64,000 nucleotides of DNA from Acidimicrobiia bacterium (GTDB lineage Bacteria > Actinomycetota > Acidimicrobiia > Acidimicrobiales > Poriferisodalaceae), in NCBI GenBank assembly GCA_022827265.1, contig JAJDTF010000034.1:1-64000 (forward strand). The letters are read 5' to 3'. The notes below the pieces were generated by a model, which was not told where the DNA came from, ran no database searches, and was given only the letters and a program-made list of their open reading frames with translations. Shown here one piece after another: positions 45,115 to 63,600 of the stretch. The stretch's first letter is position 1. Every line of letters begins with the position of its first letter. Both the position numbers and the translations under genes were made by a program.

Positions 45115-46740
45115 ATGCCGGTACTGCGATCTCACATCGACACCTCCGCTGAGTGGTTCACCAAGAACTGCGACGACATGCGCGAGCAGCTCGACGAGCT
45201 CGACGAGCTGCAGCAGCAGGCTGCGGCCGGCGGCGGGCCGCGGGCCATGGCACGCATGCGCAGCCGCGACAAGATGCCGGTGCGCGAACGCATCGCCATG
45301 GTGCTCGACCGCGACTCGCCGTTCTTCGAGATCAGCTCGCTGGCCGGCTACTGCTCGAACTACGCCGTCGGCGGCGGGCTGGTGATGGGCATCGGCGTCG
45401 TGAACGGCGTCGAGTGCATGATCGAGGGCAACGACCCCACCGTGCTCGGCGGGGCCATCACGGTGTTTGCGGGCCGCAAGATCATGCGGGCCATCGAGAT
45501 CTGCCGCGACAACCGAATGCCCTACATCCAGTTCGTGGAGTCGGCGGGCGGCGACCTGCGCGGCGACGACGACCCCGAGCGCCAGATGCTCGAGCAGGAG
45601 AGCCACTTCGCCGAATCGGGCCGGCTGTTCTATGACGTCACCGAGCTGTCGAAGATGAAGATCCCCTCGATCTCTGTGGTCTTCGGCAGCTCCACCGCCG
45701 GGGGCGCATACCAGCCCGGCATGAGCGACTACAACATCTTCATCCGCAACCAGTCCAAGGTCTTCCTGGGGGGGCCGCCGCTGGTGAAGATGGCTACCGG
45801 CGAGGACTCCGACGACGAGACGCTCGGCGGGGCGCAGATGCACGCCGAGATCTCGGGCCTCGCGGACTACCTGGCCGAGGACGAAGCCGATGCGCTGCGC
45901 ATCTGCCGCGAGGTCGTGGCGCATCTCAACTGGCGCAAGCTGGGCCCTGGTCCCACCATGCCGGCCGATCCCCCGGTGCACGATCCCGAGGAGCTGCTCG
46001 GGCTGATGCCGCGGGACCTGCAGGCCCTGATCGACTGCCGCGAGGTCATCGCCCGCATCACCGACGGCTCCCGTTTCGAGGAATTCAAGGCGCGCTACGG
46101 CACCACACTCATCTGCGGCTGGGCCTCGGTGCACGGCTTCCCCGTGGGGATCCTGGGCAACAACGGCCCGCTGTTCAGCGACAGCTCCGAGAAGGCCACG
46201 CAATTCATCCAGCTCTGCAATCAGCAGGACATCCCGCTGGTCTTCCTGCAAAACATCACCGGCTACATGGTCGGCAAGGACTTCGAGCAGGGCGGGATCG
46301 TCAAGAACGGCTCGAAGATGATCAACGCCGTGTCGAACTCGATGGTGCCCCACATCACCGTCATCCTGGGCAACAGCTACGGCGCAGGGAACTACGGCAT
46401 GTCGGGGCGGGCGTTCAACACCCGCTTCACCTACCTGTGGCCGACCGCCAAGATCGCCATCATGGGGCCCAAGCAGATCGCAGGCGTCATGTCGATCGTG
46501 CGGCGGGGCCAGGCGATGCGCCGTGGCATCGAGTTCGACGAGGAAGCCGACCGCAAGATCACCGAGCAGGTGGAGCACTACCACGAGCTGAAGTCGCTGG
46601 CCCCCTACGCCAGCGGGCGCGTCACCGATGACGGCGTCATCGACCCGCGCGACACCCGCGACGTGATCGCGATGTCACTGTCTGCATGCCACAACAACGT
46701 GGTGAAAGGCGCCGATGGGTTCGGCGTCTTCCGGATGTGA
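45115..46740 (+). CDS. Acyl-CoA carboxylase, carboxyltransferase (beta) subunit
   Basis: A 541-residue carboxyltransferase of the methylcrotonyl/geranyl-CoA carboxylase-like group. VESAGGDLRGDDDPERQMLEQ near residue 142, FGSSTAGGAYQPGMSDY near 190 and FLQNITGYMVGKDFEQGGIV near 377 are typical substrate-binding loops. With the biotin-carrying alpha subunit encoded 12 bases downstream it would carboxylate a branched or short acyl-CoA. A GGGAG ribosome-binding site precedes the ATG. The substrate could also be propionyl- or acetyl-CoA. Confidence 0.9.
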   Translation: MPVLRSHIDTSAEWFTKNCDDMREQLDELDELQQQAAAGGGPRAMARMRSRDKMPVRERIAMVLDRDSPFFEISSLAGYCSNYAVGGGLVMGIGVVNGVECMIEGNDPTVLGGAITVFAGRKIMRAIEICRDNRMPYIQFVESAGGDLRGDDDPERQMLEQESHFAESGRLFYDVTELSKMKIPSISVVFGSSTAGGAYQPGMSDYNIFIRNQSKVFLGGPPLVKMATGEDSDDETLGGAQMHAEISGLADYLAEDEADALRICREVVAHLNWRKLGPGPTMPADPPVHDPEELLGLMPRDLQALIDCREVIARITDGSRFEEFKARYGTTLICGWASVHGFPVGILGNNGPLFSDSSEKATQFIQLCNQQDIPLVFLQNITGYMVGKDFEQGGIVKNGSKMINAVSNSMVPHITVILGNSYGAGNYGMSGRAFNTRFTYLWPTAKIAIMGPKQIAGVMSIVRRGQAMRRGIEFDEEADRKITEQVEHYHELKSLAPYASGRVTDDGVIDPRDTRDVIAMSLSACHNNVVKGADGFGVFRM

Positions 46741-46752
46741 GGGCGGCTGGGT

Positions 46753-49035
46753 ATGACTGATTCTGAGCTTCGACCGATCCGGCGCCTGCTCGTGGCCAAC
46801 CGCGGCGAGATCGCCCGCCGGGTGTTCCGCACCGCACAATCGATGGGCATCTCGACGGTTGCGGTCTATGCCGACGGCGACGCTGAGGCGCCCTTCGTCA
46901 CCGACGCGGACCTGTCCGTGCCGCTCGGCGGCCGCACGGCGACCGACTCGTACCTGTCGATCGACAAGGTGCTCGCCGCGGCCGAGAACAGCGCCGCCGA
47001 TGCCGTGCATCCGGGCTACGGATTCCTGTCCGAGAACGCCGACTTCGCCCAAGCGGTCATCGACGCCGGCCTGACCTGGGTGGGGCCTGCACCGGCGGCG
47101 ATTGCGGCCATGGGCGACAAGCTGGCGGCCAAGGAATCGATGATCGCTGCCGGCGTGCCGACGCTGCCGTCGGTGCCGGTGGCTGAGGTGATGTCGGGCG
47201 ATGACCTGGCTGCCGCCGGAGCCGACGTCGGCTACCCCCTGCTGGTCAAGGCGTCGGCGGGCGGCGGCGGCAAGGGCATGCGCATCGTCGACGCCCCTGA
47301 CACCCTCGCCGACGCTGTCGCCGCTGCCCGGCGCGAGGCCGCCGGCGCGTTCGGCGACGACACGGTGTTCCTGGAGCGCTACCTGCCCGCGCCGCGCCAC
47401 GTGGAGATCCAGGTGCTCGGCGACACCCACGGCAACCTGGTGCACTGTTTCGAGCGCGAATGCTCCATCCAACGGCGCCATCAGAAGGTCATCGAGGAGG
47501 CACCGTCGCCCGCCGTGACGCCAGCGCTGCGCGACCGCATGGGCGCCGCAGCCGTCGCGGCCGTCCGCACCATCGGCTACCACTCGGCCGGCACCGTCGA
47601 GTTCCTGCTCGAGGGCAGCGGCGACGACGCCGAGTTCTGGTTCCTCGAAGTCAATACGCGCCTGCAGGTCGAGCATCCGGTCACCGAGGAGATCACGGGC
47701 CTGGACTTGGTGCGTGAACAGATCCGCATCGCGGCCGGGGAGCCGCTGGGCTACGGCCAAGACGACCTGACAATCCGAGGGCATGCGGTGGAAGCCCGCC
47801 TGTACGCGGAAGATCCCGCCAGCGGTTTCCTGCCCGCCACTGGCACGGTCGAATTGTGGGCGCCCGCGCGCGAGGCGCAGGCGCGATTCGATTCCGGCAT
47901 CGAGGTGGGGTCGGTGGTGGGCACCGAGTTCGACCCGATGCTGGCCAAGGTGATCGTGGCGGCGCCGACGCGCACAGAAGCTGCGCTCGGACTGGCGTCG
48001 GCACTCGACCGCACACGATTGGGCGGCGTGGTCACCAATCGTGACTTCCTGTCTGCGGTACTGCGCAGCGATGAATTCCTGGCCGGCGACACCACGACGG
48101 ATTTCATCGAGCGGGTGTACTTCGGGGACGCTGGGGAGAGCCCGAGACCGAGCGAGGGCAGCGACGCGGGCGTCACAGGACAGCCGAGCGGCGGCCTCGC
48201 TGCCTCCGAACCGGCACGCCACCCGATGTTCGTCCACACGGCCGCTGCCGCCGTTGCGTTGGTCTCCCAAGAATGCAACCGGCATGACGCCATTCGACTG
48301 CGCTTCATGACTTCGGGGTATCGCAACAGCGTCATGCCCGACGAGGTGCTGCCGCTGTCGGCTGCGACCGGGAACGAGCTCATCGAGGCCAGCGTGCAGT
48401 ACCGCCGCCAGCGTGACGGCACCTGGAGGATGCGGGTCGGGCCACTGCCCCCGACAGGACCGTACGCGGGCATCGGTGAAGACAACGGCGGCACTTCCGA
48501 CGCAGGCGAGTCCGATGACGCAGCCGAGGCGCCGGGGCACAGCGATTGGTCGGTACGCGTCCACGGCATCACGCTTCGCCCCCTCGCCGGTGCAGACGCA
48601 GCCTCGCCCGACGCCATGAGCGCCGACAGTGTCTACACGGGCGATGTCGACGCAACCGTCGATGTGGAGGTTCCGGTACCTGGACTTGCGGGGTTTCGAG
48701 GCGCCTGGGCGGTCAGCCGCCGCGGCAGCCGCTGGTACGCGACGGGGCCCGTCGGCGGATCGGTCACCTTGGTGCAGCGGTCCCGGTTCCCCGATCCCGA
48801 TGCCGAGGCTGTCGAAGGGGGTTTGGTCGCACCGATGCCCGGCAAGGTGCTGATGGTCGACGTGCAGCCCGGCGACCGGGTGACCTCAGGTCAGGTGCTC
48901 GTGGTGATGGAGGCCATGAAGATGGAGCACCAGATCACCGCACCTGCGGACGGCGAGGTGAGCGAAGTGCGGACTGCTGTCGGCGACCAGGTCGACAACG
49001 GCGAACTGCTGGTCGTGATCGCGGCTGACAGCTAG
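46753..49035 (+). CDS. Acyl-CoA carboxylase, biotin carboxylase/carrier (alpha) subunit
   Basis: A 760-residue multidomain protein. The N-terminal biotin carboxylase (LLVANRGEIARRVFRTAQ; ATP-grasp loop KASAGGGGKGMRIV; FLEVNTRLQVEHPVTEEITG) spans about residues 8-455. A long linking region follows, and the biotinyl domain has the carrier lysine in EAMKMEH near residue 719. It carboxylates biotin with bicarbonate and ATP, then hands the carboxyl to the beta subunit. Operon with the upstream gene. The linker (residues about 455-640) is rich in Gly/Asp/Ala and longer than usual. Confidence 0.93.
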   Translation: MTDSELRPIRRLLVANRGEIARRVFRTAQSMGISTVAVYADGDAEAPFVTDADLSVPLGGRTATDSYLSIDKVLAAAENSAADAVHPGYGFLSENADFAQAVIDAGLTWVGPAPAAIAAMGDKLAAKESMIAAGVPTLPSVPVAEVMSGDDLAAAGADVGYPLLVKASAGGGGKGMRIVDAPDTLADAVAAARREAAGAFGDDTVFLERYLPAPRHVEIQVLGDTHGNLVHCFERECSIQRRHQKVIEEAPSPAVTPALRDRMGAAAVAAVRTIGYHSAGTVEFLLEGSGDDAEFWFLEVNTRLQVEHPVTEEITGLDLVREQIRIAAGEPLGYGQDDLTIRGHAVEARLYAEDPASGFLPATGTVELWAPAREAQARFDSGIEVGSVVGTEFDPMLAKVIVAAPTRTEAALGLASALDRTRLGGVVTNRDFLSAVLRSDEFLAGDTTTDFIERVYFGDAGESPRPSEGSDAGVTGQPSGGLAASEPARHPMFVHTAAAAVALVSQECNRHDAIRLRFMTSGYRNSVMPDEVLPLSAATGNELIEASVQYRRQRDGTWRMRVGPLPPTGPYAGIGEDNGGTSDAGESDDAAEAPGHSDWSVRVHGITLRPLAGADAASPDAMSADSVYTGDVDATVDVEVPVPGLAGFRGAWAVSRRGSRWYATGPVGGSVTLVQRSRFPDPDAEAVEGGLVAPMPGKVLMVDVQPGDRVTSGQVLVVMEAMKMEHQITAPADGEVSEVRTAVGDQVDNGELLVVIAADS

Positions 49036-49114
49036 CGATCTGACAACAGTGCCGATGACCACGGTGCAATAGCGTCGATCCGGTCGGCGCACCAGGAGGT
49101 CTCTCAGCTCCGAT

Positions 49115-50767
49115 ATGAGCTATGACCTTCGCACGCTCAGAGGGGACGTTGCCGGCGGGGTCACCGCGGCAGCCATCTCGATCACGCCTGCTGCGACATT
49201 CGGCGTGGTGTCGGGGCTCGGCGCCGCGAGCGGCATCTATGGCGCGCTCGCCGCGGGATTGTTCATCGGGATCTTCGAACGGTCACGGCCTCAGATGGGG
49301 TCAGTCACCTCCGTCTTGGCCGTTGCCATGGCGGCTGTCGTGACAACCCACGCCGACACGGCCGCAGAAGCGTTCACGATTGCCATGCTCGCCGGCGTCA
49401 TCCAGCTCTTCCTGAGCGTCCTGCGCATCGGCAGCTATGTCGCGTACACGCCGTACTCGGTAATCGCCGGTTTCACATCGGGGATTGGCGTGATGATGGT
49501 GCTCTCGATGGTCAACACGTTCTTGGGCGATCCGGTCAAGATCACCAAGCCCGTGAATGCGATCCAGCGCTGGCCCGACGCACTCGACTCGTTCAACTCA
49601 GGCACGCTGATCATCGGGCTGGCGGCATTGGGCGTCTCGCTGCTGTGGCCGCAGCGGCTGCGAAAGCTGTTGCCCGCCATGGTCGCGGCGCTGCTGGTCG
49701 GAACCCTGCTCAGTGTGCTGTGGCTGAGCGAAGTGCCGACGCTCGAGGGCATCCCTCGCGCTCTGCCCGAGTTGCAACGCCCGAATCTCTCGCTGGGATT
49801 CCTCGCGAACGCCGTCGTGCCGGCATTGACCATTGCGCTGCTCAGCACCGTGCGAGGGCTGCTGGCCGCTTTGGCGGTGGATGCGCAGACCCGCACGCAG
49901 CTCGACCCAGACAAGGGGCTGCTGGGCACCGGCATCGGCAATGTGGCCGCCGGCCTGATCGGCGGGCTTCCCGGGAATCTGACGTTCGTCTCGTCAATCC
50001 TGGCGTGGCGGATGGGCGCCCGTACACCGATCTCGCCCATCGTCCGCTCGCTGACGCTCTTGGTGCTGATTCTCGGCCTGGCGCCGCTGCTCGCCTACGT
50101 GCCCCACGCAGCATTGGCAGGCATGCTCGCCGTCATCGGCTGGCAGCTCATCGACTGGCGGTTCCTGGCGCGGCTTCGGCGAGTGCAGCGCGAGCACCTG
50201 CTGATCATGCTCACGACGCTCGGGATCACGGTGTTCGTCGACTTGGTCACCGCGGTCGCCGTCGGGCTGATCGTGGCGGGCATGATCGGCGCCCGCCAGT
50301 TCGAGCGCCTCCAGCTCGACAGCGTCGTGTCGGTGCCCCTGCTGGACCAGATCTTCCTGTACGAGCACAGCGCAGCGTCGCACGGCATCAGCCCGTATTC
50401 CGCACGCACCGGAATCGTCAAGCTGCGCGGCAGCTTCACCGTGGCATCTTCGAGCAAGCTCATCCGCACCATCGGCGACGACATCGTCGGCCACGAGGTC
50501 GTCATCCTGGATTTCTCCGAGACCGAGTACATCGACGACAGCGCTGCTCTGGTCATCGAGCAGCTCATCGACACCGCCGCCCACGGCGATGCCACGTGCA
50601 TCATCCTCAGTCTCGACGGTGCGCCCGCCGCCACCCTCGAATCACTCAACGCACTTCGCCGTATCCCGTCCCGGTACCGGGTCGGATCGCTCGACGAAGC
50701 TCAGGATCTTGCCCGGGGTCTGCTCGTCGACGAATCCGAAGCCGGTCCCCCTCCCCCCCTCGCTTGA
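49115..50767 (+). CDS. SulP-family anion transporter with C-terminal STAS domain
   Basis: A 550-residue transporter with about 11-12 helices and a STAS domain from about residue 435. The N-terminal GGVTAAAISITPAATFGVVSG is the first SulP transmembrane signature. STAS shows IVKLRGSFTVASSSKLIRTI and ILDFSETEYIDDSAALVIEQL: the Ser in IDDSAAL aligns with the phosphorylated Ser of SpoIIAA-type proteins. It moves sulfate or another anion; substrate unknown. AGGAGG lies about 15 bases before the ATG, wider than usual. Confidence 0.9.
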   Translation: MSYDLRTLRGDVAGGVTAAAISITPAATFGVVSGLGAASGIYGALAAGLFIGIFERSRPQMGSVTSVLAVAMAAVVTTHADTAAEAFTIAMLAGVIQLFLSVLRIGSYVAYTPYSVIAGFTSGIGVMMVLSMVNTFLGDPVKITKPVNAIQRWPDALDSFNSGTLIIGLAALGVSLLWPQRLRKLLPAMVAALLVGTLLSVLWLSEVPTLEGIPRALPELQRPNLSLGFLANAVVPALTIALLSTVRGLLAALAVDAQTRTQLDPDKGLLGTGIGNVAAGLIGGLPGNLTFVSSILAWRMGARTPISPIVRSLTLLVLILGLAPLLAYVPHAALAGMLAVIGWQLIDWRFLARLRRVQREHLLIMLTTLGITVFVDLVTAVAVGLIVAGMIGARQFERLQLDSVVSVPLLDQIFLYEHSAASHGISPYSARTGIVKLRGSFTVASSSKLIRTIGDDIVGHEVVILDFSETEYIDDSAALVIEQLIDTAAHGDATCIILSLDGAPAATLESLNALRRIPSRYRVGSLDEAQDLARGLLVDESEAGPPPPLA

Positions 50768-50910
50768 CCGGTCCTGAATCACCAGACCGCTAGACGCGTC
50801 GACGCACCGGTCGACCTGCCATGCGCGACGCAACCGGGGCAGCACTCGGCGGGGCTACTGTCGGCGCGACACCCGGGGCACGTCACGTCCGGGCAGACAG
50901 GGGAACCCAC

Positions 50911-51984
50911 ATGAGCACTGCAGCAGTACACCGTCCCGGAAGGCTCGGCGATCCGGACATGACCATCGCCGACGATCCGCGTGCAGACCCGCGCATGACC
51001 GCAGTACTGGAGATGGTCGGCATGGGCGGCCACGGCGAGCCGTCGCCCGCGACGGCAGAGACGTCGATGGAGGATCTGTACGCCTGGGTCAACGAGGCTG
51101 AGCCCGGCTTCGAGATGCTCTTCGACGCGCTCTTCGGCAGCCTGCCGCCGGTCGAGGGCGTGGAGTCGCGCACCGAGGTGATCAGCGGCGTCGACGGCAA
51201 CGACATCAACCTCTACATCCACAACCAGTCCGACGCTGCGGGCCCGCAACCGTGCGTGTACCACATCCATGGCGGCGGCATGGTGCTGCTGAAGGCATCG
51301 GGACTGTCCTATGTGCGCTGGCGAGACGAGCTGGCGGCGCTCGGATTGGTCGCCATCGGCGTCGAGTTCCGCAACGGCGGCGGCGAGCTGGGCAACCACC
51401 CGTTCCCCGCCGGCCTCAACGACTGCGCGTCGGGCCTGCAGTGGGTTGCCGCCAACAAGGACGCACTGGGCGTGTCGACCATCACCGTCTCGGGAGAGTC
51501 GGGCGGCGGGAACCTGACCCTCGCCACCGCGCTGAAGGCCAAGCGCGACGGCTATCTCGACCTCATCGACGGCGTGTTCGCGCAGTGCCCGTACATCTCG
51601 GGCATGTACGCGGACCCGCCCGCCGACCTGCCGTCGCTGCATGAGAACAACCAGTACTTCCTGGACTGCGAGAACATGGGCGGCATCGCCAAGGTGTACG
51701 ACCTGGGCGGGCCAGACCGGACCAACCCGCTGGCGTGGCCGCTGCAGGCCAGCGTGGATGAACTGACCGGGCTGCCGCCGCACGTCATCTCGGTGAACGA
51801 GCTCGACCCGCTGCGCGACGAGGGACTCGCCTACTACCGCAAGCTGGCGGCGGCAGGCAACAGCGTTCAGGCCCGCACGGTCAACGGCACCTGCCATGCA
51901 GGCGACGTGATCTTCCGCGGCGCCATGCCCGAGGTGTATGCGGCCACCGCCGCAGCCCTGCGCGACTTCGCCTACTCGGTGTAG
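50911..51984 (+). CDS. Hormone-sensitive-lipase-type alpha/beta hydrolase
   Basis: A 357-residue hydrolase of the alpha/beta fold-3 (HSL) group. The oxyanion motif is YHIHGGGMV near residue 115, the nucleophile GESGGGNLT near 195, Asp in NELDPLRDEG near 298 and His in CHAGDVIF near 330. It hydrolyses carboxylic esters. An AGGGGA ribosome-binding site supports the ATG at 50911. Lies between the two transporters below/above, with no clear functional tie. Confidence 0.9.
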   Translation: MSTAAVHRPGRLGDPDMTIADDPRADPRMTAVLEMVGMGGHGEPSPATAETSMEDLYAWVNEAEPGFEMLFDALFGSLPPVEGVESRTEVISGVDGNDINLYIHNQSDAAGPQPCVYHIHGGGMVLLKASGLSYVRWRDELAALGLVAIGVEFRNGGGELGNHPFPAGLNDCASGLQWVAANKDALGVSTITVSGESGGGNLTLATALKAKRDGYLDLIDGVFAQCPYISGMYADPPADLPSLHENNQYFLDCENMGGIAKVYDLGGPDRTNPLAWPLQASVDELTGLPPHVISVNELDPLRDEGLAYYRKLAAAGNSVQARTVNGTCHAGDVIFRGAMPEVYAATAAALRDFAYSV

Positions 51985-52074
51985 CAAGGGCTCGTTTCGA
52001 GCCTGGCTGTTGTGGCAATCCGCGCAACAACAGTCATAACGCCCATTATTCGAGTCCCGCATTACTTGGTGAAT

Positions 52075-52086
52075 TAGCGTCGGCGC
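52075..52086 (+). promoter_or_regulatory. Leaderless -10 box for the NCS2 transporter
   Basis: TAGCGT (52075-52080) ends 6 bases before the GTG at 52087; there is no ribosome-binding site. Confidence 0.4.
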
Positions 52087-53814
52087 GTGGCCGCGGCGGC
52101 GCCGGGCGAGGGCATCAGCTACGAACCAGACGAGAAGTGCTCCATTGCGCTGGCGCTGGGAATGGGCATCCAGGGCGTCGTGCTCGCACTGGCACCGACG
52201 GTGCTGGGCATGTCGCTGTTCGTGCAGGCGGCAGATCTGAGCCAGCGTCAGGCGACTTGGGCGGTGGTCGCAGCGATCCTGGTGTGCGGCATGACGAGCG
52301 TGCTGTCAGCAGCTCGCCTCGGCCCTATCGGCGGCGGGCACAACCTGCTCATCATCAGTTCGACCGCCTTTCTGGCGGTTTCGATCCTCGCTGTGAATCG
52401 GGCCGGGCCCGAGACGTTTGCGTCACTCGTCGTTGCTTCGGCCCTGTGCCACATCGTGCTGGCGCGCTGGCTCCACCTGCTGAGCCGCATCATCACGCCG
52501 GTCGTCTCGGGCGTTGTCCTGATGCTGATCGCGATCGGCGTCATGGGAGTCGCGGTGGATCGGCTCGAAGGATCATCCGAGGGCGTGACGGCGGCTGCGG
52601 AACCTGCGGTGGCGCTCATCACCATCCTGAGCGCTGCGGCGGTCGCGATGCGTGCCCGGGGCCGGCTCCGACTCTGGTCGCCGATCCTCGCGGTCATCGT
52701 GGCATGCGTCATCGCCGCCCTCTTCGGCCTGTTCGACCTCGAGGGTGTGCGCAACGCCGCCTGGATCGCACTGCCGCGCCCGGATATGCCGGGACTCGAT
52801 CTGACGCCTGGCGTCGATTTCTGGACGCTGCTGCCGATGTTTCTCGTCGTCTCGTTGGCCAGCGTCATCAAGACGATGACGACCAGCGTGGTGCTTCAAC
52901 GTGTCTCGTGGCGACAACCCGCAACCCCCGACTACCGACTGGTGCGGGGCACGGTCAACGCCATCGGTGTCGGCTCGCTCGCAGGCGGGTTGGCAGGGAC
53001 GCTCCCCGTGGGCACGATGGACGCCACCTCGATCTCGTTTGCTTCCCTGACCGGCGTCGCGGCACGTCGGGTGGGTTACAGCATCGGCATCATCTTCGTG
53101 GCCCTGGCACTGCTGCCGAAGTTCGTGGCCGCGTTGCTGTCCATTCCCCAAGCCGTGACCTCGGGCTACCTGATCTTCTTCATGGGCCTGCTGTTCGTGG
53201 AGGGCCTGCGGTTGGTATTCCGGGACGGCATCGCACCGCAGAAGGCTGTGATCGTCGGCGTCTCCATCGGCATCGGCGCCAGCCTGCAGGGCAACAATCT
53301 GATGGAGTCGATCATCGGAGGTGCTTGGGGGGCGTTGCTCGGCAACGGCATGATCCTCGGCACGCTGGCAGCGCTCGTGCTGACCGCGTACATCGAGCTG
53401 AGCGGCCGCAAGCGCAGCAGGCTCGAAGCCGAGCTCAAGGCGGAGGCACTGCCGGGGGTCGACGACTTCCTGTCGGAGGTTGCCGCGAGCGTCGGCTGGG
53501 ACGAAGCGTCGGCAAATCGGCTCCGCCTCGTCGGGGAGGAATCGTTGCTGAGCCTCATCGAAGCCAGCGAGGAGGAGTCGCCACCCCGTCTCATCGTGAT
53601 CGCGCAGCCTTCTCCGGCCAAGATCGAACTGCAGCTGCGAGCGTCGCTGCACGCGCAGAATCTCGAGGACCGGCTGACCTTTTTGAGCGAACGATCCGAG
53701 GCATCCCACGAAGGGGCCTTCTCACTGCGCCTGCTGAGCCACTTCGCCTCGACAGTGCGGCACCGGCAATACGCCGGCATCGACATCATCACTGTCGAAG
53801 TCGAGCGCAGATAG
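52087..53814 (+). CDS. NCS2 nucleobase transporter with degenerate RsbW-like C-terminal domain
   Basis: A 575-residue protein. Residues about 1-440 form an NCS2 (xanthine/uracil permease) transporter; LGPIGGGHNLLII, TMDATSISFASLTGV and the final TM helices are visible. Residues about 445-575 are a soluble extension: NRLRLVGEESLLSLIEASEE resembles the N-box helix of RsbW/SpoIIAB kinases (Asn replaced), and HEGAFSLRLLSHFASTVRHR followed by GIDIITVEVE resembles the end of that ATPase fold. The DxGxG box is missing, so catalytic activity is unlikely. Possibly a regulatory docking domain. Confidence 0.82.
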   Translation: MAAAAPGEGISYEPDEKCSIALALGMGIQGVVLALAPTVLGMSLFVQAADLSQRQATWAVVAAILVCGMTSVLSAARLGPIGGGHNLLIISSTAFLAVSILAVNRAGPETFASLVVASALCHIVLARWLHLLSRIITPVVSGVVLMLIAIGVMGVAVDRLEGSSEGVTAAAEPAVALITILSAAAVAMRARGRLRLWSPILAVIVACVIAALFGLFDLEGVRNAAWIALPRPDMPGLDLTPGVDFWTLLPMFLVVSLASVIKTMTTSVVLQRVSWRQPATPDYRLVRGTVNAIGVGSLAGGLAGTLPVGTMDATSISFASLTGVAARRVGYSIGIIFVALALLPKFVAALLSIPQAVTSGYLIFFMGLLFVEGLRLVFRDGIAPQKAVIVGVSIGIGASLQGNNLMESIIGGAWGALLGNGMILGTLAALVLTAYIELSGRKRSRLEAELKAEALPGVDDFLSEVAASVGWDEASANRLRLVGEESLLSLIEASEEESPPRLIVIAQPSPAKIELQLRASLHAQNLEDRLTFLSERSEASHEGAFSLRLLSHFASTVRHRQYAGIDIITVEVERR

Positions 53815-53874
53815 CGGCGGACCATAGGGTTGCAGCTATCGGCCGATCTACATGAGAGGAATAGGACAAACGCA

Positions 53875-54699
53875 ATGGACACATCGCTCTTTCAGCTCGA
53901 GGGCAAGAATGCGCTGGTGGTAGGCGGCGGGCAAGGCATGGGCGAGGCCGCCGCGAAGCTCCTGGCGCAAGTCGGCTGCGGTGTCGCCATTGCCGACATC
54001 AAGGGCGGGAGCGCCGAGCGGGTCGCCGCTGAGGTCGCCGACATGGGCCAGCCCAGCGCACCGATAGTCGGCGACGTGCTTGACGATGATCAGGTGCCCC
54101 GAATTGTCGAGCGAGCCGAGGCCTCGCTCGGAGGACTCGACGTCCTGGTGGCAACTGTCGGCCAAGCATCCTTCGCCCCGCTCGTCGACATGAAGCCCGA
54201 GCAGTGGGACCGCGACCAGCACTTCAACCTGCGCTATTTCTTCCTCATCGCGCGTGAAGCGGCCCGCTCGATGATCGCGCGCGGCACGCCCGGCGCGATG
54301 ACGTGCGTCTCGTCGGTAGCCGGGCTGCAATCCGCTCCCAATCACGCCTCCTACGGCGTGGCGAAGGCCGGTCTCGTGAACCTGGTGCGATCGATGGCCG
54401 TCGAATGGGCACCGCACCACATCCGCGTCAATGCGATAGCGCCTGGGAGCATCGCCACGCCGCGCATCCCTGACACACCCGAGCGGCGGGAAAAGACGCG
54501 CCAAGGCCTGATCCCCACCAAGCGCCTCGGAACGGTCGACGAAGTCGCCAAAGCAGCACTGTTCCTGGTCTCGGATCTGGCGAGCTATGTGACCGGCACC
54601 ACTCTGGCGGTCGGCGGAGGCTGGATGGCCGCCTCCATCCTCGGCGTTCCCTCCGTGCCTGACGGCGGCAAGCTCGACGCCACCGCCGGCCAGACCTGA
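53875..54699 (+). CDS. Short-chain dehydrogenase/reductase (SDR)
   Basis: A 274-residue SDR. The glycine motif is VVGGGQGMGEAAA (a variant of TGxxxGIG), Asp in IADIKGG suggests NAD, Ser in CVSSVAG and SYGVAKAG provide the catalytic Ser, Tyr and Lys. NAIAPGSIATPRI is the usual post-active-site loop. The ATG at 53875 follows AGGAATAGGA. It lies 60 bases after the NCS2 gene. Substrate unknown. Confidence 0.9.
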   Translation: MDTSLFQLEGKNALVVGGGQGMGEAAAKLLAQVGCGVAIADIKGGSAERVAAEVADMGQPSAPIVGDVLDDDQVPRIVERAEASLGGLDVLVATVGQASFAPLVDMKPEQWDRDQHFNLRYFFLIAREAARSMIARGTPGAMTCVSSVAGLQSAPNHASYGVAKAGLVNLVRSMAVEWAPHHIRVNAIAPGSIATPRIPDTPERREKTRQGLIPTKRLGTVDEVAKAALFLVSDLASYVTGTTLAVGGGWMAASILGVPSVPDGGKLDATAGQT

Positions 54700-55969: not shown

Positions 55970-56224
55970 ATGTCGACCACGCAGATTGCAGTTCGACTGC
56001 CCGACACGCTCTTGACGCAGTTGGACCATCTCGTCTCCGCAGGCGTCTTCGAGTCTCGCGCCGCTGCCGTGAGGGCGGGCGTGGAGTCGGTCACGGCTGA
56101 ATGCCTCCGCCACGAAATCGACCGCGCCATTGTCGACGGGTACCGGCGCGTACCGCCAACCGGTGACGAATTGCGTGCAGCACGGGCGTACCTGCGCAGC
56201 TCGATACTCGAGGAGCCGTGGTGA
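55970..56224 (+). CDS. Ribbon-helix-helix antitoxin (MazE/ParD-like)
   Basis: An 84-residue antitoxin beginning TTQIAVRLPDTLLTQLDHLVSAGVFESRAAAVRAGVE, a textbook ribbon-helix-helix (strand, helix, turn with F-x-S-R, helix). The C-terminal ELRAARAYLRSSILEEPW would bind the toxin. GTGA overlap with the toxin gene. It follows a leaderless promoter with an operator-like palindrome. Confidence 0.87.
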   Translation: MSTTQIAVRLPDTLLTQLDHLVSAGVFESRAAAVRAGVESVTAECLRHEIDRAIVDGYRRVPPTGDELRAARAYLRSSILEEPW

Positions 56225-56538
56225 CCAATCCTCGTCGCGGGGAAGTCTGGTGGGGTGAGCACGAAGAAGCCGGTCGCCGGCCGTATCTGGTGATGACGCG
56301 AGATGCAGCTATCGGCGTGCTCGACCGCGTCATCGCCGTGCCGCTGACTCGCACGATCCGCGACATCCCGACTGAGGTGCACCTCGACCGCCAGGACGGC
56401 GTGCCCCAGGAATGCGCCGCAAGCCTCGACAACATCGGAGTGGTGCCCATCGGTGACCTGACCGAACGCGTCTGCACCCTCACGCCCGACCGCCTCGCAC
56501 AGGTCTGCGCGGCACTCTCCTTGGCCGTCGACTGCTAG
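56221..56538 (+). CDS. mazF: MazF/PemK-family endoribonuclease toxin
   Basis: A 105-residue toxin. PRRGEVWWGEHEEAGRRPYLVMTRD, the beta-barrel start with the conserved R-P-x-L-V, and IAVPLTRTIRDIPTEVHL and GVPQECAASLDNIGVVP are the family blocks. It cuts mRNA at specific short sites. The GTG at 56221 has AGGAG 5 bases upstream; the GTG just before it is too close. Coupled to the antitoxin gene. Confidence 0.9.
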   Translation: MTNPRRGEVWWGEHEEAGRRPYLVMTRDAAIGVLDRVIAVPLTRTIRDIPTEVHLDRQDGVPQECAASLDNIGVVPIGDLTERVCTLTPDRLAQVCAALSLAVDC

Positions 56539-57213: not shown

Positions 57214-57588
57214 TCATCGGATTTGTCTAATGTGACCATCTGATCCCCATGCTCTATCCGCTGTCAATACCACCAAGTCGAGTCGACTCGCCAAGGCCAA
57301 GCATAACCTATCCGCTAACGACAGTCCCTCACCGCGAACATATCGATGAGCGGCCCATTCTGCGTCACGCTGACTCACAGGGACAACGGTTACCAATTGA
57401 CGGTCAAACAAGAACTTGGCTACGGCATCGAGGCTGCGGTCCTTGTCAAGAACTTGCTGACACACTTCGGACCAGTTCGCCGCGCCGCAGAGCGCAGTAT
57501 CCTCTAGAATTGCCTGTTCAACAAGATCGGCACCCGACTCGTCTTGTAGGTACGCGAGGACGGCCGATGCATCCAGAACAACGCTCAT
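57214..57588 (-). CDS. vapC: VapC-type PIN-domain toxin
   Basis: A 124-residue PIN ribonuclease: Asp in VVLDASAVLAYL, Glu in ANWSEVCQQ, Asp in LSLADRLCLALAS and Asp in VLTADRAW. Composition is somewhat less GC-rich than neighbours. It overlaps the antitoxin gene by four bases (ATGA). Confidence 0.88.
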   Translation of the reverse strand: MSVVLDASAVLAYLQDESGADLVEQAILEDTALCGAANWSEVCQQVLDKDRSLDAVAKFLFDRQLVTVVPVSQRDAEWAAHRYVRGEGLSLADRLCLALASRLDLVVLTADRAWGSDGHIRQIR

Positions 57589-57912: not shown

Positions 57913-60663
57913 TCACATCACAGGGTAGACCTGTAGGATTTCGTCGCCGTAGTGGTTTATGGCTTTTACGGCGATCTTGCCGGTGGTTGGCTGGGGGAAC
58001 GGCCGTGAGGTGGTTGAGTAGAGGCTGGCCCAAGCTTCGGGGCTGATCTCGGCGCGGAGGGTTCGAGCGAGTTGGGCGTAGGGATCGCCGGCACCGGTGA
58101 AGTATGCGTGGCGCACGCAGAACCCTTGATCGTCGTAGTTGGTGTCGATGAACCAGCAGGCGATGTCGTCGGTGGACGAGGAGCGGACTTGGCCTGTGGT
58201 GGGGTCGTACACGTCGAGGCCCTTGATCTCGACGACGTAGTTGTCGGAGTCGGCCGCTTCGTCGTAGACGCGGCGGATGTCGATATCCGGTTCGCCGAAG
58301 ACCATGAACAGATTGCCTGCTCCGGTCTTCTTCAGCAGCTCGTCGCCCATCGCCAAGTCGGGGTTCATCCGGGCAAGCAGCACTCGCAAGCTGCCGAGCG
58401 TTCGCTCCTCAGCGGCAATCGCGAATCCGTCTGCGGCATCGGAGGCATCACCGAATGCCTTGGCCTCTTCGCTGGCGAGTGCATCGAAGGCGAAGCCGAG
58501 CACGACAAGCAGGTCGAAACCGGCGCCGCGTAGCGCCTCACGGCCTGCGCCCAGCACCTGCTCGGGGCCGACGGTGCCGTGCTCGGGGCCAATGGAGACC
58601 GCAACCCGACGCTGCTCGCCGTCATGATCGGTGAACTCGCCCTCGGCATGAATCCACTGGCCGGACCACAAGTCCAGACGGTCGAACTTGAGGCGCTGGT
58701 CGGCGTAGGTGTTCTGCACGCCCGCGCTGCGCAGGTTCTCTACGATCATCGGCTCGAAGTCAGGCTTGAGGATGCCGTTCGGCGCAGCCTGGTCTTCATC
58801 GGTTGATTCGAGCGTGCGATGAGGCGACAGGCTCTCCATCGTGAAACGTCCCGTCACCCGGACACGCTTGCGATCCTCGTAGGGCTGATCCACGAGCGGC
58901 TCCGATGGCGCCTCCGCCAACGCAGCCGCCTCGGCTTCCTCGGCTGTCTCACAGTCGTCGATTGCTGCACAGTTAGCGAACAAACCAGAGGTAACGCGAC
59001 GAGCCAACTTGTACACAAAGCCCTTGCGGACGTCCCCAGTGAATGGTCCTTCACTGGCGCGTGTGTTGGATAGCTTTGCGATCTGAGCCGCGCCGGTGGC
59101 AGAATCTGCCAGAGTGAAATAGGGATGCCTAGCGGCCATCAGACGAGTTCGAGCGAGCGCCAGCGCAACACGGCTAGTGTCCACGGTTATCCAGCGTCTT
59201 CCCCACTGTTCCGCAACGTACGCCGTTGTGCCCGAACCACAGGTGGGGTCCAATACCAAATCCCCGGGATCAGTTGTCATCAGAATACAGCGCTTGACAA
59301 TCTCAGGATTAGTCTGAACGACATAGACCGGGTTAGAAGCCCCTCCCAGATGGTCCCACCAGTTGGAAATCACCTTGAATGCAAAATCGTCGTAGTAGCG
59401 CTTGTATCTCAGAGTCGTACGAAGTGGCACTAAGCGATTCACTCGCGCGAGCCGTTCCATGCCACTCAGACCGTCTCCTGTGCGGCGAGATGTATGCCGC
59501 CAACACAGTCCCTGTCCGGGCACATACGACACGCCATCGACCTCGACAGGATCCATTTGATTGGTCCGCTCTCCACCGTTGCTCACCTGCCACGAACTGA
59601 ACAGACGCGCCCCAGGCCAGTCGCGATCCAAGGATCGTAGATTGAGCCGATAGTCCCGAGTGGTGCCGTCGGTGGACGGAACAGCGGAAACCGGAAACGC
59701 TTCACCATTCGGAAGTTCGACCCGGCTGAACTCACGTAGAGTATCGATGTCAAGCTGGCGATCCTCAAATAGCTGCCGGTACTTGGGTCCGACTTTGCCA
59801 CTACCATCACGCGGTTGCTTCGAATACCACAGCAGGTAGTCGTTCACTGGATCCATGAGTGACGACTTCTGACTACCCTTCTTCTTGACAACAATCGTTA
59901 CGACAGAACAATCAGCACCGAATGCTTCGTCGAGCAGCGAGCGCACCAAATGTACGTTGTCCTCGCCGATCTGGACGAAGATAGAACCGGTCTCGGTGAG
60001 CAGTTCACGGCACACGATGAATCTGTCACGTAGATAGCTGAGGTACGAATTGATACCAAGTTCCCAAGTGTCCCGATAGGCCTTTACTTGTTCAGGCTGG
60101 CGAGTCGCGTCTTCCGCTTTGCCGTCCGTGACATTCCGCTTGCGCGTCGAGACCTGCCAATTCGAGCCAAACGAAATGCCGTATGGCGGGTCCAGATAGA
60201 TCATCTGCACCTTGCCACGCATATGCTCTTTCTCGGCCAGTGAGTTCATGACGAGCAGCGAATCGCCGAGGATCATCCGGTTCGACCAGTTGTCCTCGTG
60301 CTCGTAGAAATCGATCGACTCGAAGCCCTCCGTACCGTCGAAGTCTTCGAACAACTGCAACTCAGACGGCAGCTCGGCACCATGCCGCAGGCCTTCCACG
60401 ATCGCCCGCGGCTCGATCCGCTCTTGGATGTAGATGGGTACCGCGGGGACTTCGAGGTCGCCATCGGCCTTCTGCTGCCACACCAGCTCAGGCTCGTAGA
60501 TCTCGCGGCCGTACCGAACGGTGACCGGCCGACGCTCGTCCTCGGCGACGAACTCCCGTTGTTCACCGCTTGGAATATTGGCCCTCGTGTCGGCATGCTC
60601 CAACGCCTCCACGACCGGCGCTGTCGATCCGGTGGTGCTGGCACTGCCCTGCTGTTCGCTCAT
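57913..60663 (-). CDS. mod: Type III-like DNA methyltransferase (Mod)
   Basis: A 916-residue N6-adenine/N4-cytosine methyltransferase of the beta class: catalytic DPPYG near residue 155 precedes the SAM motif DPTCGSGTTA near residue 470. The region between them, the target recognition domain, is noticeably less GC-rich. Residues about 550-916 are an extra C-terminal part (a helicase-partner or structural domain), making the protein about 250 residues longer than ordinary Mod. The ATG at 60663 overlaps the stop of res (ATGA). It protects host DNA and gives the restriction enzyme its specificity. Confidence 0.92.
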   Translation of the reverse strand: MSEQQGSASTTGSTAPVVEALEHADTRANIPSGEQREFVAEDERRPVTVRYGREIYEPELVWQQKADGDLEVPAVPIYIQERIEPRAIVEGLRHGAELPSELQLFEDFDGTEGFESIDFYEHEDNWSNRMILGDSLLVMNSLAEKEHMRGKVQMIYLDPPYGISFGSNWQVSTRKRNVTDGKAEDATRQPEQVKAYRDTWELGINSYLSYLRDRFIVCRELLTETGSIFVQIGEDNVHLVRSLLDEAFGADCSVVTIVVKKKGSQKSSLMDPVNDYLLWYSKQPRDGSGKVGPKYRQLFEDRQLDIDTLREFSRVELPNGEAFPVSAVPSTDGTTRDYRLNLRSLDRDWPGARLFSSWQVSNGGERTNQMDPVEVDGVSYVPGQGLCWRHTSRRTGDGLSGMERLARVNRLVPLRTTLRYKRYYDDFAFKVISNWWDHLGGASNPVYVVQTNPEIVKRCILMTTDPGDLVLDPTCGSGTTAYVAEQWGRRWITVDTSRVALALARTRLMAARHPYFTLADSATGAAQIAKLSNTRASEGPFTGDVRKGFVYKLARRVTSGLFANCAAIDDCETAEEAEAAALAEAPSEPLVDQPYEDRKRVRVTGRFTMESLSPHRTLESTDEDQAAPNGILKPDFEPMIVENLRSAGVQNTYADQRLKFDRLDLWSGQWIHAEGEFTDHDGEQRRVAVSIGPEHGTVGPEQVLGAGREALRGAGFDLLVVLGFAFDALASEEAKAFGDASDAADGFAIAAEERTLGSLRVLLARMNPDLAMGDELLKKTGAGNLFMVFGEPDIDIRRVYDEAADSDNYVVEIKGLDVYDPTTGQVRSSSTDDIACWFIDTNYDDQGFCVRHAYFTGAGDPYAQLARTLRAEISPEAWASLYSTTSRPFPQPTTGKIAVKAINHYGDEILQVYPVM

Positions 60664-63600
60664 GCCGCTACCGCCGCCGCCGTCCCGCTTGCTTCCGCCA
60701 CTGCGCCCCGAATGGTGGCGTGTGCATCCCAAGGGTCGGTGACCTCCACGAAGAACCAGCGACCGAGCGCTCCATGGTTGTTGACCGCCGGCACCCACAG
60801 CTCCCGAGCCGCAGCAACCTTGGCTGCCTTGGCATCGTCTGACTTGCCGGTCACTTCGACCACGAGGTGCAGCAGGTCGCCTTCGCCGTGGCCGTCGTCA
60901 AGGCAGGCGACGAAGTCGGGGATGTAGGACCGCTGCTGCCCAGCGTCGTGGTACGGGATGGTGAAGCCCAAGCCGACATTCTTGACATAGCGGCGTACTT
61001 CGGGCAGTTCCTCGAGCGCCTGGGCCATGCGCTGCTCCCACGAGCCAGTGTCGGCCGCAACGTAGTTCACATGACAGCGGTCGGGTGCCGTCTCCCACAC
61101 CGGACGGGAGGTGTCGAAATCGACAGGCCGAGTGCTGCCGACCGGCTCGTACGGCCGCAGCACCGGCCGGAGCTGCCGAGTTCCGCCTTCCGCCCGAACG
61201 ATGCCGAGGTAGATCTTGTCGACAGCACGAGCTCGAATCTCATGCAGCTTCAGCAGACCGACAAACGCATTGTCCCGGATGCTGAGGCACTGCGGGTCTG
61301 CCAGCCACTGTCGGGTCACTCGCAGGAGCGCCGGAAACAGCCACGGCGACTCCGATGCCAGACCGTCGACGACTTCGCGGAAGTACTGGTCCAACAAACC
61401 CTTCGCCAGGTCGAATGCCAGTGCCTGGCGTCGAGTGTCCTCCAGTGAGTCGAGCGTATGAACCTCGCTGGGGCCGAGTGCACCGCGCACTTCGGTGAGC
61501 GTCGCCACGTCGCTGCCGCCGAGGCTCATATGGCTGTCTGGTCCGAAGTCGGCAGCGAGATGTTCAGTGGGCACGTCCCACTTGTAGCCGACGACTCGCG
61601 GGAAGGTGATCTCGCACGCTGAGCGTTCGGGCAGGGCGCGTACACGCTGCACCGGTTTCGGCGGACCAGGCGGTTCGCCCGCGCCCCGGGCGGGGATGAA
61701 CGAGAACGGGATGCCGTACACCTCTGCGTACTCGGGGCTGAGCAAGCCCGTCGTGCGGTCGAGGTCATAGGAGCGTCGGCGTAGGCCGCGCCCCACCACC
61801 TGTTCGCACAGCAGCTGAGTGCCGAACGCCCGCACGCCCAAGATGTGGGTGACGGTGTTGGCATCCCAGCCTTCGGTCAGCATCGAGACGCTGACAACGC
61901 AACGCACGTGCTCGCCGAGCCGGCCCACCTTGCCGACGGTGTTCATCACCTCGCGCAGCAGGTCCTCGTCGGTGAGCTTGTCGGCGTCTCGTCCGGGGAA
62001 GCGGGCTTCGTATTCGGCCTTGAACGCTGATATCTCTGTGGCGGCGTCGCGCTTGAAGGTGGCGGACATGTCCTCGCCCGACTCCAGCTGCACCGAGTCG
62101 ATCAGCACCGTGCGCGGCCGGGCCAACCACTGACCGTGCTCGACATTGGACAGCAGCGGCAGAGCGCCGGGCCGAAGTGCCTGACTGGCACCGTGGGACA
62201 CTTCACGCCCCGCGATGTAGTCGTAGATCAGCTTGGATACCGCCGTGTTGGCACACACCACGATGAACACGGGCGGTGCGGTCCGTTCGCCGACGCCGCT
62301 CCGACGCGCCCGCTGCTGGGCCTCCCATTGCTCGAACGCCTCGCGATAGTTGGAATACAGGCTCTCCAAGGCGCTCTGCAGGGTCGGCGGCAGCAGCGCC
62401 TCGATGTCATCGTCGGCTGTGTGCCGGCGACGCTTGGGCAACCCGTCAGCAATGTGAGGCCACAGATGGCGATATGTGGGCACGATGCTCGCCGTGTCGT
62501 CATCGACGGGGACGCGGGGAATCTTGACCAGGCCTGATTCGATGGCATCCATCAGGCTGAAATCTGAGACAACCCACGGGAAGAGAGTGCCTTCCGCCCA
62601 ACCGGAGCCCTTGAGATAGAAGGGCGTGGCGGATAGGTCGTAGGCGGCTCGGATGCCGAGCTTGGCCTGCACTGCTTCGAGACCTGTGATCCACATGCGG
62701 GCATCGCTGTCGCGGGTTTCCGCTTCCTTGCGCTCAGCAGCCGTGAGCTTGGCGGTCCTCGGCGCATCTTGGGCCGTAGAGGCAGGTTCGTCGGCGCCGT
62801 CGTGCGGGGCCGTCGGGCCGTTCGTCGATACAGACGCGTCGAGGTCGTAGCGGCGTCGGTGGTAGCAGTGGTGTGCCTCGTCGTTGATGACGACGATGTT
62901 GCGCTTGTTCGTGCCGAGATCGCGGCACACCCGGCGGACCATCTGCTCGGGCGTCTCGGTGAAGGCGTCGGACGGGCTGTCGGCGCCGCTACCAAGTATC
63001 GACTTGGCGGCTTTCGTCGCCGCCATCCTTTCCTTCTGGCGCAGGGCGTGAAAGTTGGTGATGGCGATGCGAGCCCGGCCCAGGTCACCGCGTCGGTCGG
63101 GCGGCACCAGGTCCATGACCCGGTAGTAGTTCGACGGGTCCGACGGCAGCAGCACCCGAAGTCGATCTCGGATCGTGATGCCCGGGCATACCACCAAGAA
63201 GGCGTCAGCGAACCGGCGGTCGCGGGGATTCGCAGCCTTGTTCAGCGTGTGCCAAACGATGAGCATCGCGGCGACAACGGTCTTGCCAGTGCCTGTCGCC
63301 ATCTTGTGCGCGATGCGCGGCAGCCCGGAGTTGGCGGCTGCATTCGCTTCGACGAGGCGGTTGTCGATCCAGCTTGGACGCAGCGCCGCGGGCGCCTCAC
63401 GCAGGAAGATCGCAGTTTCAAGCGCTTCGATCTGGCAGAAGAACAGGCGGCGCTCGCGGTCTGGCGCCTGCCAGTGTGCGAGCAGGTGACGGGTCGTCGC
63501 CGTCACACCTGGATGGCCGAGATCGCGCCACCGACCGACGTGCTCGCGCACATCGTTGACGAACCGGTTCAGCTCGATGCGCTCACGATCCTCGTCGAAC

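Follow-up and report, generated by a model that had tools for sequence, protein, structure and literature searches.

What is a domain resembling the RsbW kinase doing at the end of a membrane transporter, and is the STAS-bearing transporter encoded nearby its partner? The window, a 64,000-nt stretch of DNA from an acidimicrobial genome, encodes a SulP transporter ending in an ordinary STAS domain that reads IDDSAAL and, with one gene between, an NCS2 transporter with a C-terminal extension. The initial annotation placed both open reading frames as we find them, recognized the STAS domain and its IDDSAAL segment, and imagined the two transporters regulating each other through their tails. The features that bear on this question are as follows.

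45115-46740, + strand, carboxyl transferase, start of a run of + strand genes that reaches the SDR gene ending at 54699
46753-49035, + strand, biotin carboxylase with biotinyl domain
49115-50767, + strand, BicA-like SulP transporter with C-terminal STAS domain, 550 aa (Pfam PF00916 and PF01740), judged a neighbor outside the system
50408-50668, + strand, STAS domain of the SulP protein, residues 432-518 (Pfam PF01740)
50821-51984, + strand, alpha/beta hydrolase (Abhydrolase_3), the single gene separating the SulP and NCS2 genes
52087-53814, + strand, NCS2t, an NCS2 (UraA/UapA-fold) transporter fused to an RsbW-like tail, 575 aa, GTG start
52162-53283, + strand, NCS2 membrane core, residues 26-399 (Pfam PF00860 match)
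52870-52872, + strand, Lys262, at the position of the UapA TM8 substrate glutamate (alignment to UapA)
53026-53037, + strand, T314-S317, at the site of the UapA TM10 QNNG substrate motif (alignment to UapA)
53407-53811, + strand, predicted RsbW/SpoIIAB-fold tail, residues 441-575 (AlphaFold model, structure and profile comparison)
53518-53562, + strand, N-box-equivalent helix RLRLVGEESLLSLIE, with Glu484-Glu485 invariant and Ser489 at the catalytic Asn position, aligning with EELILN in the RsbW of this genome
53647-53676, + strand, G1-equivalent loop LHAQNLEDRL, lacking Asp-x-Gly, with Asn525 invariant and Glu527 and Asp528 nearly so
53713-53772, + strand, G2-equivalent segment GAFSLRLLSHFASTVRHRQY, lacking GxGL, with Ser546, Leu550, Ala554 and His559 invariant and His552 in 50/51 alignment rows
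53830-54699, + strand, SDR oxidoreductase, 15 bp downstream of NCS2t

Farther along the window, we judged by eye a MazF-like protein (56218-56538, + strand), a PIN-domain (VapC-like) protein (57214-57588, - strand) and a large DNA methyltransferase (57913-60798, - strand).

The NCS2 core and its RsbW-like tail

The membrane core of NCS2t belongs to the NCS2 fold, but its substrate may be a nucleobase or something else. It matches PF00860 (E 1.1e-36, Pfam), and its structural model compares closely with UapA (Z 42.6) and UraA (Z 40.3); both NCS2 and SLC26 structures match the core model. The core ends near residue 440, and the tail adds a further 135 residues. Its TIGR00801 score of 159.5 bits lies below the curated cut-off of 291.8. 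In UapA, a TM8 glutamate and the TM10 QNNG motif contribute to substrate binding. At the TM8 position the window protein has K262, as Lys is found in 43/51 alignment rows and Glu in 3/51 (the glutamate is kept in some NCS2t paralogues), and QNNG is replaced by TSIS. Because both substrate positions are changed, we treat the substrate as uncertain.

Structural and profile comparisons indicate that the tail is homologous to RsbW, beyond chance likeness. An AlphaFold model of the tail (ma25054511917, built from 58 tails; pLDDT 77, pTM 0.75) has the predicted element order strand-helix-helix-strand-strand-(helix)-helix-strand-strand, which is that of RsbW. Searched against the PDB with Foldseek/VIA, the model best matches RsbW (Z 17.8), UsfX (17.0) and SpoIIAB (15.4-15.7), followed by SiaB (11.9) and LvrC (11.7), with the best histidine kinase at only 8.4. 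Aligned by hhalign to about 50 RsbW sequences, a tail profile scores 49.2 over 126 columns (E 8.6e-8), compared with at most 17.3 across 40 column shuffles and 11.5 for the reversed profile. These RsbW-type structural matches, and a profile score far above the shuffles, are what argue for homology. The HATPase_c_2 (PF13581) match over the tail stays below the cut-off of 27.4 bits, at 12.6 bits when the whole protein is scored and 16.5 when only the tail is, and recurs in 14/24 homologous tails; hhalign against only eight close RsbW sequences gives a weak match over 44 columns, and searching the tail sequence directly against the PDB yielded no convincing match.

The tail has lost the residues of a working kinase and is under constraint. 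Across both alignments inspected (one of 51 rows), the position of the N-box Asn is occupied by Ser, Thr, Val, Ile, Cys or Ala in every row, and neither the G1 Asp-x-Gly nor the G2 GxG is present in any tail. Since all three motifs are gone, kinase activity appears very unlikely from the alignments. The paired N-box glutamates (E484, E485) are retained, and together with N525, S546, L550, A554 and H559 they make up the tail-specific invariant residues of the 51-row alignment. Synonymous changes prevail between close orthologues (tail dN/dS of roughly 0.08-0.23), and in 44/50 comparisons the identity of the tail exceeds that of the core; the tail is a noncatalytic domain under purifying selection. 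The kinase-like fold, the absence of the N-box Asn and Asp-x-Gly, and the oddity of such a tail on an NCS2 protein, all noted in the initial annotation, were thus borne out, and the motif loss proved to be family-wide among the homologues inspected. The fusion combines known parts (NCS2 fold, RsbW fold); searching the open-access literature for permeases with such tails, and for connections of these permeases to sponges or to partner switching, we found no description of it.

Distribution of the tailed family and the SulP neighbor

Tailed NCS2 proteins form a wider fusion family scattered over several phyla. Scanning one genome per species across 84,980 species returned 372 relatives, and the best 79 of these 372 loci, all from MAGs, fall in Acidimicrobiia, Chloroflexota, Binatia, Gemmatimonadota, Acidobacteriota, Latescibacterota and Gammaproteobacteria (seven phyla). 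Within the window's order, 15/148 genomes give a match, namely all 11 of the genus (1-5 copies each) and four others. Matches were found in 31/350 Chloroflexota, 2/296 Actinomycetota, 1/198 genomes of the phylum of Binatia and 1/299 Pseudomonadota, the single positives in the last two samples being the genomes used as sample centers. Copy number ranges from 1 to 7 per genome. The tail is fused to NCS2 in essentially all loci and occurs near-exclusively in this form. Phyla are interleaved in the tree (12 changes, at least six needed), a pattern that fits old paralogues, transfer, or both; we looked for carriage of the tail by phages or plasmids and found none.

The host bacteria are uncultured and apparently sponge-living, with the identifiable MAGs coming from marine sponges. 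The MAGs bin90 and bin125, both with tailed NCS2, derive from the sponge Aplysina aerophoba (PMC5649159), and the prefixes RHO, COS and IRC fit the sponges of PMC8163846. MAGs named jk18x and p16x probably belong to a Caribbean Ircinia set (PMC9531527), an assignment we infer; the names jk18x, p16x and SB06xx themselves had no match in the literature.

Several features of the loci stand out. Tandem pairs of tailed NCS2 genes are frequent (L063, L067, L073, L086, L087, L091 and others), and one broken copy retains an intact tail with most of the NCS2 core missing from the frame (L095:7824-8432). A DUF1330 gene of about 95 aa lies beside or near the tailed NCS2 gene in 29/79 loci from several phyla, on either side and strand (for example L046:8492-8788 and L050:6272-6556). 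In other loci (L052, L081, L090, L103, L104, L107 and others), from Acidobacteria, Chloroflexi, Latescibacteria and Gemmatimonadetes, the gene adjoins an alpha/beta hydrolase, a phosphopantetheinyl transferase and a type I PKS. Comparing the neighboring PKS cluster with the sponge-symbiont swf/sup clusters did not establish that they are the same, the composition of swf differing in part.

This distribution speaks against the proposed direct mutual regulation between the NCS2 tail and the STAS domain of the neighboring SulP protein. RsbW folds bind STAS domains, and the two genes lie close together both in the window and at seven orthologous loci, but these loci (L032-L038) all belong to the same genus, and the other 72/79 tailed loci lack a SulP match over distances of up to 8 kb. 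Moreover, the genome encodes four SulP-STAS proteins at different places, the window's SulP among them, and a second tailed NCS2 elsewhere. The position of the SulP gene is also explained more economically by the genes before it: the carboxyltransferase and biotin carboxylase genes lead straight into it (45115-50767), its best curated family match is BicA (below the BicA cut-off), and biotin-dependent carboxylases use bicarbonate, which the SulP protein may supply to the adjoining carboxylase. We therefore consider direct cross-regulation highly improbable; of the initial annotation, the unusual, catalytically dead RsbW-type tail stands, and its pairing with SulP does not. In one of the orthologous loci, two SulP genes stand in tandem (L034:2150-5443).

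Co-occurrence with a partner-switching operon

A better candidate for the STAS partner is the RsbV protein of a partner-switching operon that accompanies the tailed family. In the window's genome the operon comprises five genes and holds the one clear RsbW, whose motifs are intact (N-box EELILN, G1 DDGAAF, G2 GGLGL).

L149:5428-10991 (G000:C132), RsbV STAS protein, response regulator/SpoIIE phosphatase RsbU, RsbW, Peripla_BP_6 protein and histidine kinase

The operon RsbW tracks the tailed transporters closely. Among the first 80 relatives in the window's order, it occurs in 13/13 genomes with a tailed NCS2 and in 0/67 others (P = 2e-5 when only one member of the window's own genus is kept). 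Among 350 Chloroflexota, it occurs at E <= 2.5e-19 in 30/31 tailed-NCS2 genomes and 0/319 others (P = 1e-42, Fisher's exact test, uncorrected for kinship), and RsbW matches of 1e-17 and weaker lie in genomes lacking a tailed NCS2. Thirteen further positives from several phyla all have an RsbW match (E <= 7.7e-14), compared with weak matches in 3/66 further negatives (best 1.6e-12). Large-scale sampling in both directions covered only two phyla, and kinship and habitat inflate the association; a shared host-associated niche alone could explain it.

The five-gene set itself recurs in at least six groups (Acidimicrobiia, Chloroflexota, Gemmatimonadota, Latescibacterota, Binatia and Gammaproteobacteria), with RsbW divergent in the Binatia and Gammaproteobacteria operons. 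The co-occurring RsbW sequences form one clade (support 89/89 in a tree of 15 sampled). Exceptions are few: one tailed-NCS2 genome is without this RsbW (G946), and in two others the full operon was not found at the locus inspected (G148, G159). We looked for adjacency between the operon and NCS2t genes and saw none in the loci examined. Descent of the tail from the co-occurring RsbW clade was considered but is not supported, as tails score no better with that clade than with other RsbW; in the tree, the tail is a separate, very long branch not grouped with it. Nor is the Peripla_BP_6 protein exclusive to the system: proteins 50-52% identical to it adjoin methyl-accepting chemotaxis proteins in free-living Alphaproteobacteria.

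Possible roles of the tail and related systems

Because of this near-perfect co-occurrence, we take the tail as a candidate output of partner switching. Our tentative reading, which we rate somewhat below an even chance, is that the tail serves for docking and/or dimerization and lets a partner-switching STAS protein regulate transport. On binding an extracellular ligand, the periplasmic protein would signal through the histidine kinase to RsbU, which would dephosphorylate RsbV; the free or phosphorylated STAS protein would then dock on the RsbW-like tails and change transporter activity. The tail would probably also stabilize the dimer, and through the tails partner switching would have an output in membrane transport, either instead of a sigma factor or alongside one. 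The complete scheme, in which RsbV set by a ligand-sensing kinase and RsbU gates uptake through the kinase-dead tails of paralogous transporters in host-associated bacteria of several phyla, is more doubtful.

Two other readings call on part of the same evidence. The tail could be purely structural and unconnected with partner switching, holding or tuning the transporter dimer much like the STAS domain of SulP/SLC26. Both NCS2 transporters and RsbW-type domains form dimers, the tail occupies the STAS position of the related SulP fold (the core model matches SLC26 as well as NCS2 structures), and a domain that has lost its ATP residues yet remains under constraint suits such a role; however, the tight co-occurrence with the RsbUVW operon would then be explained only through habitat, and we regard this reading as unlikely, if well worth weighing. 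Alternatively, the former nucleotide pocket could bind a different small molecule, possibly the substrate or some metabolite related to it, and thereby exert feedback on transport. The conserved residues E484, E485, N525, S546 and H559 (with E527 and H552 nearly invariant) lie within or beside the N-box, G1 and G2 segments, which line the ATP pocket in RsbW, but a protein interface or the needs of folding could equally account for them, and ligand feedback seems to us quite improbable.

The tailed NCS2 proteins are a wider fusion family, and the most promising idea to test is that partner switching has an output in transport through them. The role of the STAS half of the partner-switching toolkit on SulP-group transporters is still debated, and a related transporter group with the other, enzyme-disabled half offers a clean system for testing direct partner-switching control of transport. 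Since the family occurs in apparently sponge-living bacteria of several phyla and is tightly tied to one sensory operon, it is also a candidate marker and mechanism of nutrient uptake in sponge symbiosis.

Each half of the fusion departs from its known relatives. With the RsbW/SpoIIAB/UsfX kinases (PF13581), the tail shares fold, element order (Z 14.8-17.8), detectable homology and the N-box glutamates, but the N-box Asn, Asp-x-Gly and GxG are missing, its score falls below the Pfam cut-off and it is fused to a transporter. NCS2t resembles the NCS2/NAT proteins UraA and UapA (PF00860) in its membrane core and predicted fold (Z 40-43), but differs in its score below the TIGR00801 cut-off, the TM8 Lys of the window's clade, the replaced TM10 QNNG and the RsbW-like domain. 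SulP/SLC26 transporters with STAS domains share a related transporter fold with NCS2t and likewise end in a regulatory domain drawn from the partner-switching toolkit, but they carry the STAS side and NCS2t the RsbW (kinase-fold) side. Finally, SiaABC and SypAE are partner-switching modules with non-sigma outputs (compare PMC10120452). They resemble the present system in their RsbU-, RsbV- and RsbW-like proteins, and SiaB is also a fold match to the tail (Z 11.9), whereas the output suspected here is a family of transporters whose genes lie elsewhere in the genome.
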